From: Actinoalloteichus fjordicus
Lineage (GTDB): Bacteria; Actinomycetota; Actinomycetes; Mycobacteriales; Pseudonocardiaceae
Direction: 5' to 3'
Assembly (NCBI RefSeq): GCF_001941625.1
Contig: NZ_CP016076.1
Span: 2,170,001-2,234,000 of the forward strand
DNA: 64,000 nt
The translations under genes were made by a program, and so were the position numbers. The number at the start of each line of letters is the position of its first letter. Within the stretch, counting starts at the first letter, position 1. Shown piece after piece: positions 12,004 to 38,265 of the stretch. The notes beneath the pieces are model-generated. The model searched no databases. It saw only the letters and a list, made by a program, of their open reading frames with translations, and was not told the DNA's origin.

Positions 12004-12792
12004 TCACCCGGCGGGCGCGTAGATCACGATCCAATGGTCCCGCTCGGCGTCGTGCAGCATCTCGCTCTGGAAGGTGAGCCATCCTCGGGTCGGGTGGCGC
12101 ACCTGTTTCACGGCGGACCGCCGGGCCCCGACCTCGCCTTGCGCCCAGTGGTTTCGGAAGGTGGCACTCGTCGCGGAGAGTTCCGCGAGCAGGGATCGGA
12201 GGTGCTCGTCGTCCGGGTACCGGCCCAGCGCCGAGCGAAGCTCCGCCGCAGCCCACCGGCCGTACTGGTGGGCTCCCTTGTCGCCGAGGACGTGGCGAGC
12301 CTCGGCGGTGAAGCCCTGGTGGATGATGTTGCGCCGGTACCGACCCACGCTGGGGATCGGGCCGAGGAGTTCGGTGGCGGCGGCATTGCGCGCCAGCACG
12401 TTCAGGCGCCCGTCGTGGACGGTGACGGGGACGGTGTCGTCCAGGCCGCGCAGCAGTCGGCGGAGCCCCGGTCGGATCTCGCTGTCCGGGGCGAGCGGCT
12501 CGGGCGGCAGCTCGCCCGCGAGCCGGAACAGGTGATCCCGCTCGGCGGCCGTGAGGCCGAGGGCCCGTGCCAGCGCGGTGAGGATCTCCCGTGAGGGACG
12601 CTGCGCTCGCCCCTGCTCGAGGCGGGTGTAGTACTCGACGGAGATCCCGGCGGCCTCGGCCAGCTCCTGCCGTCGCAGCCCCGGTACCTGCCTGCGCGAC
12701 GCCCGCCCGACGGCCCGCTGGGCTGGCGGCGCCATCATGGCCCGCCGACCACGCAGGTACTTCCCGAAGTCCGCCCTGTTCCCCGTCGACAT
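12004..12792 (-). CDS. XRE-family regulator with MmyB-type domain
   Basis: About 262 residues from MSTGNRADFGKYLRGRR; an ATG three codons upstream (12801) is an alternative start. The N-terminal helix-turn-helix reads VPGLRRQELAEAAGISVEYY then TRLEQGRAQRPS, the hallmark of the MmyB group. The C-terminal ligand-binding domain (MmyB_LBD) follows with VTVHDGRLNVLARNAAATEL and a conserved run of Trp/Arg residues. It is divergent from the SDR gene at 12985 with about 190 bp between starts. This regulator/SDR arrangement is common in actinomycetes and suggests the regulator controls the reductase. Confidence 0.9.
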   Translation of the reverse strand: MSTGNRADFGKYLRGRRAMMAPPAQRAVGRASRRQVPGLRRQELAEAAGISVEYYTRLEQGRAQRPSREILTALARALGLTAAERDHLFRLAGELPPEPLAPDSEIRPGLRRLLRGLDDTVPVTVHDGRLNVLARNAAATELLGPIPSVGRYRRNIIHQGFTAEARHVLGDKGAHQYGRWAAAELRSALGRYPDDEHLRSLLAELSATSATFRNHWAQGEVGARRSAVKQVRHPTRGWLTFQSEMLHDAERDHWIVIYAPAG

Positions 12793-28769: not shown

Positions 28770-29686
28770 GTTCGCGTTTCGCAGAGTTCGTCCCGGCCGA
28801 GTTCTCCTCGACCGTGCTCGGGGAACTGGAGGCCGCCTCGCTCGACCCGGCAGAGGTGCGGCGGGTGGTGCTCACCGCCTTGGAGGAGGACCTCAGATAC
28901 GGGCCGGACGTGACCACCTCGGCCACTGTCCCCGCCGACGCGGTCGCGGTCGCCGACGTGGCGGCGCGGCGGGCGGGCACCGTCGCGGGCATTCCGGTCT
29001 TCCTCGCTGTGCTGGACACCGTGCTGGGACCCGATCGCGTCGAGGTGCAGACGGAACTCTCCGACGGAGACCGGGTGGTGCCCGGCCAGGCCGCGCTGCG
29101 GGTCAAGGCGTCGGTGCGCGGACTGTTGACCGCCGAGCGCACGGCGTTGAACCTTCTCTGCCATCTCTCCGGCGTCGCCACCCTCACCTCGGCCTGGGTG
29201 GCCGAGGTCGCAGGCACCAACTGCGTCATCCGGGACAGCCGCAAGACCACGCCGGGGCTGCGGCACCTGGAGAAGTACGCGGTGCGCTGCGGAGACGGGG
29301 CCAACCATCGGATGGGTCTCGGAGACGCCGCCCTGATCAAGGACAACCACGTGGTCGCGGCGGGCTCGGTCACCTCGGCCCTGGCCGCCGTCCGTGCCCA
29401 CGCCCCGGACCTGCCCTACGAGGTCGAGGTGACCACGCTGACGGAACTCGACGCCGTCCTGGCCGACCGCGCGGAACTGGTGCTGCTGGACAACTTCAGC
29501 CCGCAGCAGTGCGCCGAGGCCGTCCGGCGCCGGGACGCGGCAGGCACCGGCACCCGGCTGGAGGCCTCCGGCGGGCTCACCCTGGACGTCGCCAGGGAGT
29601 ACGCCGTCACCGGGGTGGACTACCTGGCGGTGGGCGGGCTCACCCACTCGGCGCCCGCGCTGGACCTCGGGCTGGATCTGATCTGA
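28766..29686 (+). CDS. nadC: Nicotinate-nucleotide pyrophosphorylase (QPRTase)
   Basis: Converts quinolinate and PRPP to nicotinate mononucleotide, with loss of CO2. 306 residues. Signatures: the substrate-binding run RDSRKTTPGLRHLEKYAV, then GLGDAALIKDNHV, and the C-terminal barrel motif LEASGGLTLD followed by GVDYLAVGGLTHSAPALD. ATG overlaps the nadB stop. It ends the nad operon; no strong hairpin follows. Confidence 0.96.
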   Translation: MSSRFAEFVPAEFSSTVLGELEAASLDPAEVRRVVLTALEEDLRYGPDVTTSATVPADAVAVADVAARRAGTVAGIPVFLAVLDTVLGPDRVEVQTELSDGDRVVPGQAALRVKASVRGLLTAERTALNLLCHLSGVATLTSAWVAEVAGTNCVIRDSRKTTPGLRHLEKYAVRCGDGANHRMGLGDAALIKDNHVVAAGSVTSALAAVRAHAPDLPYEVEVTTLTELDAVLADRAELVLLDNFSPQQCAEAVRRRDAAGTGTRLEASGGLTLDVAREYAVTGVDYLAVGGLTHSAPALDLGLDLI

Positions 29687-33179: not shown

Positions 33180-33874
33180 GGGGCCTCCGGTTCACAGGGG
33201 GTGTCGTCAGCGGAGAACCCCGCGCGGCGGGTGGGCGCGGGGCGGCTGTTCGCGGTGGTGGCAGGCTCGGACGAGGGGGCCTCGTCGGCTGGTCGGGAGC
33301 GGATCGCGGCGATGGCGGTCGCAGGCGTCACGGCGCGACGGAGTCGGGTCGATGGTCACGGCGACGGAGTCGCCAATGGGTACGGCGACGAGTCACCACG
33401 GGCACGGACGGTGTTCGAGAGAGCACGGTGGGAGACGGCTTCTCGATCGTGTTCCGCGCGGAGATTCCTGACAAGGTCGATGGACACAACACGTAGCCGT
33501 GACAACCGGTCTGCCCGACTCCGGTGTCCGATGTGGGCGTTTCTCGAGTCCGGCCCGCATCGTCGCCGGGTGACCGGGCCGTGTCGGCCCCCGGAGCACG
33601 CCGTGGCTCGGCGGGTCCGTGCCTGTCGGAGCCGTCCGGAGGGAGTCCTCGGCGTCCGGGGCGGCACGTTCTCACGGGATGCGGCCCACGATGGCGGCCT
33701 GCCGGCGCTCACTGCCCGCCTGCGTCGCGATACGGAGTCCCGACGTCCTGAACCGCATAGGTGACGGGTGCAGCAGAGCGGAGCGTCTCGCGCCGAGGGC
33801 GAAGGCGCCGCAGGCGCTGCTGATCGGGCTGCGTGCGCGCAGGCGCGGGCCGCTCCTTGCGGCTGTGTCGCAAT
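33180..33874. other. 0.7-kb region without recognisable gene
   Basis: Frames on both strands give Arg/Ser/Gly-rich text with no domain and they contradict each other. The left edge should carry the carboxypeptidase promoter. No repeats or RNA genes recognised. Confidence 0.4.
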
Positions 33875-33920: not shown

Positions 33921-34604
33921 ATGTCGAGTCAGGCGGATCGCGCCGGAATCGCGGAACGAGCGCGGCTGGTGACGAGGGAGTTCCAGGGCTTACAGGGCTA
34001 TCGGATGTTGCCCTGGGTCGCGCCGCTGCTGGTGTGGTGGGCGTGGGAGGCAGGCGTGGCGGGGGTGAACCGGTGGATGTGGTCGGCGTCGGTCGTGGCG
34101 GCGACGGTCGGGACGTGGTGGATCGGACGCTGGTACGGCCGGACATACGGGACCCTGCGTCATAGCGGACAATTCGCTCGTTTCGCCCGTTCAGCAGCAG
34201 TGTTCGGGCTTGGGCTGCTCGGCGTCTACGGGTTGATCGCGATCCTGTCGGTGACCGGAAACTGGCCGCTCGACTCCGGCGCTCACGTGGTGTCCTGGTT
34301 CGGGGTGATCCTGGGCGTCGCGACGGTGATCACGGGCAGGCGTATCCGCGCGTTGTCCCGCTTTCTCGTGTGGTTCGGCGTCGCGGTGGTGGTGCTGAGT
34401 CTGCTCCCGTTCGGTCTGCTCGTCGGCGGCGACGGCCGTCATCCGTTCTCCGTCGACGGCGCCGGAGTGGGAGTGCTCACCGCACTGCTGATCGTCATCG
34501 GCATCGCCACGCATCGGACACTGCATCGCTCTCTCGTCGGACCGCCCGCGTCCACAGTCGCGCGCAGGCAGGCGGCCGGGCCTGGCGGATCGGATGCGAC
34601 GTGA
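33921..34604 (+). CDS. Hypothetical membrane protein upstream of winged-helix gene
   Basis: 227 residues with about six membrane helices (visible ones include LPWVAPLLVWWAWEAGVAGV, VFGLGLLGVYGLIAILSVT, WFGVILGVATVITG, FLVWFGVAVVVLSLLPFGLL, VGVLTALLIVIGIAT). No catalytic or transport motif recognised. ATG at 33921 follows GGAAGG nine bases upstream. The stop overlaps the GTG of a small winged-helix regulator (GTGA). Membrane protein plus such a regulator is a common actinomycete two-gene unit, often linked to efflux or stress, but the role here is unknown. Confidence 0.8.
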   Translation: MSSQADRAGIAERARLVTREFQGLQGYRMLPWVAPLLVWWAWEAGVAGVNRWMWSASVVAATVGTWWIGRWYGRTYGTLRHSGQFARFARSAAVFGLGLLGVYGLIAILSVTGNWPLDSGAHVVSWFGVILGVATVITGRRIRALSRFLVWFGVAVVVLSLLPFGLLVGGDGRHPFSVDGAGVGVLTALLIVIGIATHRTLHRSLVGPPASTVARRQAAGPGGSDAT

Positions 34605-34933: not shown

Positions 34934-35243
34934 ACCGGTACCCCAGATGCTTGCCGCAGGGTCGGTGAGGGGCCGGGTTCGCACCCGTGTCGCAGCCTGG
35001 CGCCCTGCTAGTCGGCTGCCAGACAGCCGTGCGGGATGCGGGCGTGCTGTGCCGATCATGTTCGGGCAGTGGAACGGTCTCGACTGTTTGTGATCTTCTG
35101 ACTACTCTCGGTTCAGGCGTCCGCAGAGGTGCGGTCCGGTGTGCTGTGCCGGAGTTCTCGTCATCACGTCGGGAAGTGCACGGCGTGACGGTTCCGCCCC
35201 CGACCGCTCCTGTCGCGCTGGTCCAGTGATTCCTGCACTGAGC
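34934..35243. other. 310-bp region upstream of RiPP locus
   Basis: Somewhat lower GC than its surroundings, with TTGTGATCTTCTGACTACTC around 35088. No gene seen. It should carry the promoter of the ATP-grasp RiPP operon. Confidence 0.35.
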
Positions 35244-35256
35244 AAGGAGCCTGCTG

Positions 35257-35591
35257 ATGCTCATTGGCCCCTCCAACACCATTTCCGTCACCGACGCGGT
35301 GCTGGCGGCCGAGGACACGCCGTTGTCGTCGGCTGGTCTGCGATATCTGGTGCGCCGCCCGGCGACGGCCGACCGACCGGGACCGGTCGACACCCGCCCG
35401 CTGGGTTGCGCCATCTCCGCCCGGTGCCGCCCCCGGTGCAGCCGGATTCGCGCTACAGCGCCGACTTGCAAATCGCCGTCGACCTGCACGGCAGGCCGTT
35501 GATCGAGACGATGGGCAAGGACTGGAAGACCAAGGCGTCCAGCGACGGAGACGAAGGACCGGAGGAGCATTACGACTGGGAGGAGGAGTGA
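35257..35591 (+). CDS. Graspetide-type RiPP precursor, frame interrupted
   Basis: Candidate substrate of the downstream ATP-grasp ligase. ATG 35257 has an ideal ribosome-binding site (AAGGAG, seven bases). Its frame reads MLIGPSNTISVTDAVLAAED and on to VDTRPLG, then loses sense (CAISARCRP). The next frame continues with GLRHLRPVPPPVQPDSRYS, then LQIAVDLHGRPLIETM and the acidic end SSDGDEGPEEHYDWEEE, up to the stop at 35589. Joining the frames at about 35401-35408 with one added base gives RPLGLRHLRPV, the family motif RP[WF]GLxxxRP, and a ~110-residue precursor. So a one-base deletion, or a sequencing error, splits it. Lys/Thr/Ser plus many Asp/Glu residues suit omega-ester/amide crosslinks; Asp-Gly suits aspartimide formation. 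The stop overlaps the ligase start. Confidence 0.7.
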
Positions 35592-36601
35592 CCTCCCAGA
35601 CAACCGCCCCGACAGTGGTGGTGTTTGCCCAAGAGACCGACGCCCCGGTCGACGCGGTCGTCTGTGAGTTGACCGAACGGGGTGTGGCGGTGTTCCGTGC
35701 TGACACGAGCTGGTTTCCCAACAGGCTTGTGCTCGACGCCGGTCTTGACGCCACCGGACGGTGGACTGGTGCGCTGGTCACCGAACACCGCCGCGTCGAT
35801 CTGGAAGCGATCACCGCGGTCTGGTACCGCGACCCGGCTGCGTTCCGGTTTCCCGACTCACTCACCGACGTCGAACGCGCCTATGCCCATCGCGAGGCCC
35901 GCCTCGGGTTCGGCGGAGTGCTTGCAGCCCTGCCCGGCGTGCTGTGGGTGAACAACCCGAACCGGGCGGTGGATGCGATGTTCAAGCCGGTGCAACTCGC
36001 CACCGCCGCCGCGGGTGGACTGCGCGTGCCTGCGACCCTGGTCACCAACGACCCGGCCGCCGTGACCGCCTTTGCCGCCGCCAACACTGACGACGGCGCA
36101 GAAAGCAGTAAGTCCGGAGTGGTGTGTAAGTCGTTCGGGTCCAACGCGGTGACCGAGGGCGGCCGACTCAAGGTCGCCTACACCCACCGTCTCACGGACG
36201 CTGACTTGGCCGACCTGCGATCGGTCGCCTCTACGGCGACACAGGTCCAACGTTGGGTGGACAAGAGCCACGAGGCTCGCGTGATCGTGATCGGCCGACG
36301 GATGTTCACCATCCTGATCCACGCCCACTCCGCCGCGGCACGGGTGGACTGGCGGGCCGATTACGGCGCGCTCACCTACGAACTGGTGGACACCCCGTTG
36401 GACATCGAGCGGGGCTTGCGCGCCTACATGGACATCCTCGGACTGGCCTACGCGGCAGTCGATTTCGCGTTCGACACCGACGGCCGCGCCTGGTTCCTGG
36501 AATCCAACGGCTCCGGGCAGTATGGCTGGCTGGAATCGCGAACCGGGGCGCCGATCAGTGCCGCCCTGGCCGACCTGCTCACCGAGGGAACGTCCTGGTG
36601 A
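35588..36601 (+). CDS. ATP-grasp RiPP maturase (graspetide ligase)
   Basis: 337 residues. ATP-grasp ligase of the MvdC/D and TgmB type that links side-chain carboxylates to Ser/Thr/Lys side chains of a precursor peptide. Motifs: an N-terminal domain with VVFAQETDAPVDAVVCEL and VWYRDPAAFRFP, then VCKSFGSNAV (nucleotide-binding Lys), QRWVDKSHEARVIVIG and the metal-binding end AAVDFAFDTDGRAWFLESNG. GTG at 35588 overlaps the precursor stop (GTGA) and has GGAGGAG just upstream; its own stop overlaps the methyltransferase GTG. The three genes are one coupled operon. Confidence 0.9.
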   Translation: MTSQTTAPTVVVFAQETDAPVDAVVCELTERGVAVFRADTSWFPNRLVLDAGLDATGRWTGALVTEHRRVDLEAITAVWYRDPAAFRFPDSLTDVERAYAHREARLGFGGVLAALPGVLWVNNPNRAVDAMFKPVQLATAAAGGLRVPATLVTNDPAAVTAFAAANTDDGAESSKSGVVCKSFGSNAVTEGGRLKVAYTHRLTDADLADLRSVASTATQVQRWVDKSHEARVIVIGRRMFTILIHAHSAAARVDWRADYGALTYELVDTPLDIERGLRAYMDILGLAYAAVDFAFDTDGRAWFLESNGSGQYGWLESRTGAPISAALADLLTEGTSW

Positions 36602-37767
36602 CCAGCCGCGTCAGCTCCGAAGTCGTGGACTGGCAGCCGCATGCGGCGCGGCTTGCCGACGAACTGAAGGCCGCAGGCAAACTCACCGCGCCCGAGTGGC
36701 GAGCTGCGGTCGCCGCCGTGCCCCGCCACCACCTCGTGCCCGCCTATTACCAGCACACTCCCGACGGGTGGGTGCGCATCGACACTGCCTGCGAGACCGG
36801 GCTGGCCGCTGTCTACTCCAACACCGTGCTGTTGACAGCGGTCGAGAACATCGGCGCAGGCACCGTGATCCGCTCCTCGGCCACCCAGCCGGGCCTGATG
36901 GTCCGCATGCTGGAATCGCTGAATCTGCGCGATGGACAGCGAGTCCTGGAGATCGGCACCGGCACGGGTTACAACGCCGCCCTGATGTCGCACCGGCTCG
37001 GCGACGACCGCGTGTTCTCCGTCGACGTCGAGCCCGATCTCGTCGAACTGGCTCGCGATCGTCTGGCCGAACTGGGCTGCCACCCGACGCTGGTCGCAGG
37101 CGACGGCACGGCAGGGCTGCCCGAGCACGCCCCGTTCGACGCGATCATCGCCACCTGCGCGGTCTCTGCTGTGCCCTGGGCCTGGGTGGAGCAGACCCGC
37201 GTCGGCGGCGTGATCCTCATCGACCTGAAGACCGCTGTCGGCGCGGGCAGCCTCGTCCGGCTCACCCGCATCGCTTCGGAGCGCGCTGAAGGGCGCTTCG
37301 ATCCTGTCTACGCGGCGTTCATGGACCTGCGCCACCAGGCAGGTGCCGCCCCCGACCAGGTACGCGTGCGCCGGGACCACTCCGATGCCCGACAGCGCGC
37401 CGCCCGGCTCGATCCCCGCGTCCCGTGGAACAACCTGGTCGTGTGGTTCCTCGCCTCGTTCGTCCTCGGCCCCGGCATCGCCCATGGTTACACCGGCCCG
37501 GACACCACCCGGCCGCCCACTGCGGTCTGGATCGCCACCTCGGACGGCTCCTGGGCCGAGATCACCCTCACCGCCACCGACCACGGGCACGCCGTCGCCG
37601 AAGGCGGCCCCCGCAGGCTGTGGTCCATCCTCGAAGACAGCCACCGGCAATGGCTTGACCTCGGTGAACCCGGCTGGGGACGATTCGGACTCACCGTCAC
37701 CCCTGACCGGCAGACCCTCTGGCTCGACCAGCCCGACAGCGAGCACACCTGGCCGGTGCGTTCGTGA
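36598..37767 (+). CDS. PIMT-like methyltransferase of ATP-grasp RiPP system
   Basis: 389 residues. The N-terminal ~220 residues are a protein-L-isoaspartate O-methyltransferase fold: SSATQPGLMVRMLESL, the SAM motif VLEIGTGTGYNAALMSHRL, VFSVDVEPDLVELARDRL and FDAIIATCAVSAVPWAW. A ~150-residue C-terminal extension is specific to the RiPP-associated group. In the fuscimiditide and amycolimiditide pathways this enzyme class methylates an Asp that then closes to an aspartimide. GTG 36598 overlaps the ligase stop. Gene order precursor, ligase, methyltransferase is the same as in those loci. Substrate residue here is inferred. Confidence 0.88.
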   Translation: MTSRVSSEVVDWQPHAARLADELKAAGKLTAPEWRAAVAAVPRHHLVPAYYQHTPDGWVRIDTACETGLAAVYSNTVLLTAVENIGAGTVIRSSATQPGLMVRMLESLNLRDGQRVLEIGTGTGYNAALMSHRLGDDRVFSVDVEPDLVELARDRLAELGCHPTLVAGDGTAGLPEHAPFDAIIATCAVSAVPWAWVEQTRVGGVILIDLKTAVGAGSLVRLTRIASERAEGRFDPVYAAFMDLRHQAGAAPDQVRVRRDHSDARQRAARLDPRVPWNNLVVWFLASFVLGPGIAHGYTGPDTTRPPTAVWIATSDGSWAEITLTATDHGHAVAEGGPRRLWSILEDSHRQWLDLGEPGWGRFGLTVTPDRQTLWLDQPDSEHTWPVRS

Positions 37768-37826
37768 CCGGAGGAAGTCAGATCACCTCTGCGTTGCCGA
37801 GCAGTGCGTGGGAGGCGCGGACTTCC

Positions 37827-38006
37827 TCAGCGGACCCGGGCGGCCTGCTGGTTGATCCGATGAACCTCCGGCTGCGTCGGGCCGTGGGCGTCGGCGGTGA
37901 AGACGCCTGCGCCGTCCGCGATGGCGGCGTCGGCCTGGATGGTGGGCCCGCGTGCTTGGGTGAGCAGGGCGTTGGCTCGGTGGAATCGGGCCACGACGTC
38001 GATCAC
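37827..38006 (-). pseudogene. Possible 59-codon gene fragment
   Basis: Minus-strand frame from GTG 38006 to the stop at 37827. It reads [20 protein letters not shown] and later [18 protein letters not shown], with nearly every codon ending in G or C, unlike the overlapping plus-strand frame. The frame stays open further upstream, and a neighbouring frame there also looks protein-like ([13 protein letters not shown]), hinting at a frameshifted larger gene. No family recognised. The rest of 37768-38265 shows no other gene. Confidence 0.3.
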
Positions 38007-38265
38007 CGATCCTGCGCGACCCCCGGCTGCCGCGGTCGATCGTGGTGACGCGGCGTCGTCCGGGTGCGAGCGAGTGCCGCGCGGGTGGAGGACCAGGCGG
38101 GTACGGGGTGGTCCCGTCGTGCTGCCAGGTCTGGTGATCCGGCGCGGTGATCAGCCCTCCCGCCGGTTCGCCGCGGCTCACGGCGGGTCTGGCGTCGCGC
38201 AGGCTGCCCGCCGGCTACGCTGGGTCCGGCCGATTCGTGCCTCGTCGAGGAATCAGAGGAGCCTG

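Follow-up and report, generated by a model that had tools for sequence, protein, structure and literature searches.

A graspimiditide operon of Actinoalloteichus fjordicus with a probably split precursor gene, and the conserved, glutamate-rich core of its relatives

Imiditides are a class whose defining feature is the aspartimide (PMC13001092), and those that arise from clusters of two genes, with no further primary RiPP enzyme, are the type I pamtides, whose precursors are described as about 45 residues long and rich in Gly and Pro (PMC10787088). When an ATP-grasp ligase is also encoded, the name is graspimiditide; surveys have predicted from 962 to 1432 graspimiditide clusters, and the four characterised products carry Thr-Asp esters and a methylated Asp in the loop (PMC13001092). 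In the fuscimiditide system (ThfA/ThfB/ThfM), ThfB tolerates Thr-to-Ser but not Asp-to-Glu exchanges (PMC12291112) and is inactive without the leader, in which RPFG is, by its authors' inference, the key recognition element (PMC13003496). Amycolimiditide, albusimiditide and SsfA are likewise actinobacterial graspimiditides, described with Thr-Asp esters in a stem-loop and with a Gly after the loop Asp (PMC13001092); the last 12 residues of SsfA comprise four Asp and no Glu (PMC10787088).

The window analysed here, a stretch of 64,000 nucleotides (positions 2170001-2234000 of the 7.12-Mb single-contig genome of Actinoalloteichus fjordicus), holds a trio of coding units on the forward strand between 35257 and 37767 (Table 1). 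A sequence-only reading had described three overlapping genes, for a precursor, an ATP-grasp ligase and a PIMT-like methyltransferase, as a graspetide or imiditide locus. The two enzymes and an acidic Asp-Gly core are indeed present, and 4-base GTGA overlaps join the coding units at both junctions (core unit/ligase and ligase/methyltransferase), but no single gene encodes the precursor here. The profile search which that reading had proposed bore it out for TIGR04186 (29.3 bits, cut-off 25) and for TIGR04187 (383 bits, cut-off 350), and the methyltransferase scored 374.5 bits against TIGR04188, 5.5 bits under the curated cut-off of 380. The ligase aligned over its full length with solved graspetide ligases in the PDB, such as CdnC and AMdnB (5ig9, 9bou, 7mgv (CdnC), 5ig8, 7m4s (AMdnB) and 7drm), and falls inside the RiPP ATP-grasp families, in keeping with the aspartimide-type graspetide family that had been named. 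An AGGAGG lies one base 5' of its GTG start, within Glu codons of the core.

Table 1. Features of the precursor, ligase and methyltransferase units (positions in the window)
Feature	Position	Strand	Remarks
Ribosome-binding-like AAGGAG	35244..35249	+	7 bases 5' of ATG; read from sequence
Precursor leader half, 50 codons	35257..35406	+	RPLG end at 35395-35406
Precursor second half (leader end and core)	35406..35591	+	other frame; TIGR04186; G001 similarity
Core KDWKTKASSDGDEGPEEHYDWEEE	35517..35588	+	Asp-Gly at 35544-35549
ATP-grasp graspetide ligase	35588..36601	+	GTG start overlaps core stop codon; TIGR04187, PF21068
PIMT-like O-methyltransferase, 389 aa	36598..37767	+	GTG start; TIGR04188, PF01135

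The methyltransferase matched PF01135 with 104.5 bits, and this match ends at residue 212 of 389, leaving a C-terminal extension such as the PIMT-like enzyme of the fuscimiditide system also has (PMC13001092). Its motifs include GTGTG at residue 120 and WLDLGEP (WXXXGXP) at residue 352, the latter pattern being found in 9 of 18 methyltransferases of the clade, the window copy counted. The best PDB match was the Thermotoga maritima PIMT 1dl5, a PIMT described as sharing part of the extra C-terminal domain (PMC13001092). Sub-cut-off matches to TIGR04188 also occurred in all 14 control genomes, and none of 12 long matches in the organism's own genome reached the cut-off; the assignment of the methyltransferase thus rests on its score, its place and its partner genes together. 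For TIGR04186, no match was found in the same number of control genomes (14). Type I pamtide clusters share the PIMT-like methyltransferase with this locus but are described as two-gene clusters without an ATP-grasp ligase (PMC10787088). Here the ligase is present, and the methyltransferase is not the sole primary RiPP enzyme. The locus is therefore a group 13 graspetide (graspimiditide) and not an imiditide, and the latter label has to be dropped.

It had also been supposed that the precursor gene runs from 35257 to the core. The ATG at 35257 instead opens a frame of 81 residues that is closed by a stop codon at 35500-35502 and has a C-terminus different from the core. The core is in the frame of an ORF at 35139-35591, and only this second frame is matched by TIGR04186. 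The frame changes at 35406, immediately 3' of RPLG and beside three G, and beyond this point the frame of the ATG is out of register. RPLG is the counterpart of the RPFG recognition motif in the fuscimiditide precursor; the motif and the acidic core are thus both found, in different frames. In the congener G001 both halves of the precursor form one ORF, and a DNA alignment shows one base fewer in the window at the junction. A query with the intact precursor of G001 recovered two pieces in two frames from the window genome (2205257-2205412 and 2205391-2205588), the leader half being 62% identical to residues 1-52 and the second half 85% identical to residues 46-111. The last 28 codons (ETMG and the core) differ from those of G001 by six synonymous and no nonsynonymous changes. 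Against G001, the leader half of the precursor has a dN/dS of 0.56 and the second half one of 0.118; the values for the two enzymes, both with open frames, are 0.155 (ligase) and 0.201 (methyltransferase). Leaders are variable among the intact relatives too. Judged by this comparison, the ATG at 35257 and the core derive from a single ancestral gene but do not share a reading frame.

Relatives of the precursor were sought in a family sample of 390 genomes with the intact G001 precursor as query (E 0.001). Matches came from 83 of these genomes; 30 loci among them were read, weaker matches being left out, and 19 of the 30 carry a whole precursor with a core of this type. Together with the window this makes 20 genomes, from nine of 46 genera. 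Nine further aligned loci carry related but different cores, and L052 was read and stands outside the alignment. Searching the same 390 genomes from the ligase side, with a threshold of at least 60% identity, gave 21 other ligases with 61-85% identity to that of the window. Upstream of 19 of them a whole precursor is found, in agreement with the expectation of the sequence-only reading that close ligase relatives would have one, and the result that was to refute it is absent; one has the core only, and for one no precursor was found. The predicted co-occurrence of the three genes held as well, with a precursor followed by ligase and methyltransferase in 17 of 17 regions examined, out of 19 loci (the methyltransferases of G194 and G197 were left out). 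A profile of the 19 sequences, run against 394 genomes of the class (E 1e-5), matched only the window genome and G623, where the match covers leader positions 13-76 alone. At L108 (G353, contig C47, about 279960-280200), beside an open ligase, just the end of the core region, with TKASSDGDEGPEEHYDWEEL, is kept behind unrelated sequence, with no recognisable leader. At L113 (G342) the ligase match, 71% identical to that of the window, starts only from residue 62, and the search upstream gave no precursor.

The core of the 19 intact relatives follows the consensus [TS]K..[ST]DGDEG.EE, three or four residues, then WEE. Invariant columns include two Lys, Asp-Gly-Asp-Glu-Gly, Glu-Glu and Trp-Glu-Glu; Asp-Gly itself is present in 19/19, and outside the DGDEG loop every invariant acid is a Glu. 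In each of the 19, two positions four residues apart are Thr or Ser, the first preceding the second Lys and the other preceding Asp-Gly. After DGDEG, 11 of the 19 cores have no Asp, and in the remaining 8 it occurs at varying places. A text search of the literature for DGDEG together with graspetide, with figures, supplements and two large surveys outside its scope, returned no paper. When the PDB was searched by sequence, neither leader plus core nor the cores of two relatives retrieved a graspetide.

The gene trio, the RPFG/RPLG leader motif and a loop Asp followed by Gly are common to this locus, to fuscimiditide and to group 13, as described in the sections cited (PMC12291112, PMC13003496, PMC13001092). 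Donor spacing is also equal, with TMRVT in ThfA (PMC12291112) and TKASS in the window. The window differs from fuscimiditide in its split precursor and in its C-terminal stem (EE and WEE here, DVEKD there); moreover, the conserved acceptors would be Glu here, whereas ThfB is reported to tolerate no Asp-to-Glu exchange (PMC12291112). Amycolimiditide, albusimiditide and SsfA differ in that their esters are described as Thr-Asp (PMC13001092).

The ester and aspartimide chemistry of the intact relatives is inferred. Their ligase would bind the RPFG/RPLG part of the leader, phosphorylate acidic side chains of the core and join them in nested esters to the side chains of Thr/Ser; methylation of the Asp in the loop Asp-Gly by the PIMT-like enzyme would follow, and the methylated Asp would close to the aspartimide. 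Ring closure in the 11 cores that lack an Asp after DGDEG must use Glu, unless one of the loop Asp residues serves. Since the characterised products have Thr-Asp esters and ThfB rejects Glu, while the invariant acids of this clade outside the DGDEG loop are Glu, the clade predicts Glu-accepting rings: on the core alignment, we expect Glu to accept two esters, perhaps with a third link, and an aspartimide to form at Asp-Gly. It seems possible, and we put it forward tentatively, that graspimiditides of this clade have Glu rather than Asp cross-links and that the invariant Lys beside the first Thr/Ser donor forms an amide (a mixed ester/amide product), the core being strongly conserved across nine Pseudonocardiaceae genera.

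In the window itself, the leader and the core lie in different frames, which the sequence-only reading had overlooked, and activity is unlikely as sequenced. A peptide with RPLG would lack the core, and peptides with the core would lack RPLG; the operon would accordingly yield no product in this strain. Translation of the ligase may fall as well, since its start overlaps the stop codon of the core, and ribosomes that begin at the ATG would terminate about 86 bases before that point.

The account that we favour is a graspimiditide operon in which a frame change of one base at 35406 divides the precursor gene, and the change itself is likely to be a real mutation. The core has not decayed and the frames of the ligase and methyltransferase are open and constrained; this state fits a recent mutation or a single assembly error, and does not fit an old dead gene. 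An assembly or sequencing error, with the precursor intact in the strain and the operon live, seems to us rather unlikely, even though a core identical in protein to that of G001 with synonymous changes only, the open frames of both enzymes, the AAGGAG 5' of the ATG and the three G adjoining the break all speak for it. Against it, the assembly shows no visible excess of frame breaks. Over 224 kb around the site, genes were compared with those of G001 both ways: 119 of 146 G001 genes with a homologue were full-length, 4 were split candidates (the precursor included) and 19 had an internal stop, and the reverse comparison of 152 genes gave 126, 5 and 18, the internal-stop rows in both directions possibly mixing wrong calls with real breaks. 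An error also sits poorly with the loss of leader, precursor or ligase parts in two of the 21 ligase relatives and in other clusters of the same genome, where another graspetide ligase is split over two frames (L015/L016, 6532636-6533585) and a further one is reduced to its last part beside a long methyltransferase (L018, 5435305-5435484). A real mutation remains the likely cause, and the locus as sequenced is probably inactive if the assembly is correct at the break. An earlier comparison of mechanically called ORFs, in which 37/79 and 30/61 of those chosen were full length, suffered from too much noise at this high GC content, and the 224-kb control took its place. The same genome also holds a C-terminal piece of a graspetide ligase at 5494444-5494698 (L017), and a 403-residue gene of G001 matches it in two adjoining pieces in different frames (2250202-2251406, outside the window).

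A usable product could still be made if the second half were translated alone or reached by ribosome slippage; this is very improbable. Eight in-frame start codons do lie at 35139-35511, and CAGAGG, a 4-of-6 match to AGGAGG, stands 9 bases upstream of GTG 35139. A start at this GTG would place the core behind an unrelated N-terminus, however, and neither there nor at GTG 35226, TTG 35406 or any later start would a peptide join RPLG to the core; a core without leader is reported not to be modified by ThfB (PMC13003496). Within 35371-35430 we found no heptamer of the form XXXYYYZ, and the 19 intact relatives use one frame; a programmed frameshift was rejected on these two grounds.

The trio had been placed between nadC and hisD. 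hisD does follow it, but nadC ends at 29686 and is separated from the trio by four genes, for a solute-binding protein, an M14 carboxypeptidase, a protein without Pfam match and a winged-helix regulator. The window is largely collinear with G001, but the position of the trio differs: in the window its neighbours are the winged-helix gene and hisD, in G001 the M14 carboxypeptidase and a gene matching window 33921-34604. The G001 trio is flanked by a 130-base direct repeat with 97.7% identity (L054, 14613-14742 and 17842-17971), of which the window has a single copy (33431-33537) two genes away from the trio. The position of the trio could be explained if a tandem duplication had lost different parts in the two genomes. 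The stretch at 37798-38009, 3' of the methyltransferase, has 75% identity to DNA beyond the carboxypeptidase of G001 (L054, about 12236-12446) and is perhaps a gene remnant; two ORFs within it have no Pfam match. Neither the nad/his neighbours nor the M14 carboxypeptidase of the window had a match in the regions retrieved from outside the genus. As regards protease or exporter neighbours, no gene outside the trio occurred in more than 5 of 18 regions, on the calls of a simple gene finder to which some genes of the trio were lost. A gene for what looks, from its sequence, like an XRE-type regulator (471 residues in L057) lies beside the trio in 5 of these 18 regions (L057, L058, L059, L060 and L061); XRE-type regulators have been noted with group 13 (PMC13097080).

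Mining based on enzymes alone also counts clusters that lack a whole precursor, here 3 of 22 loci with the window included. The kind of locus is already known, and the whole copies in its relatives carry an unusual, glutamate-rich core. A clade with a nearly fixed core that offers Glu, and with ligases that are 61-85% identical to that of the window, could show how the ligase sets the choice between Asp and Glu as acceptor.
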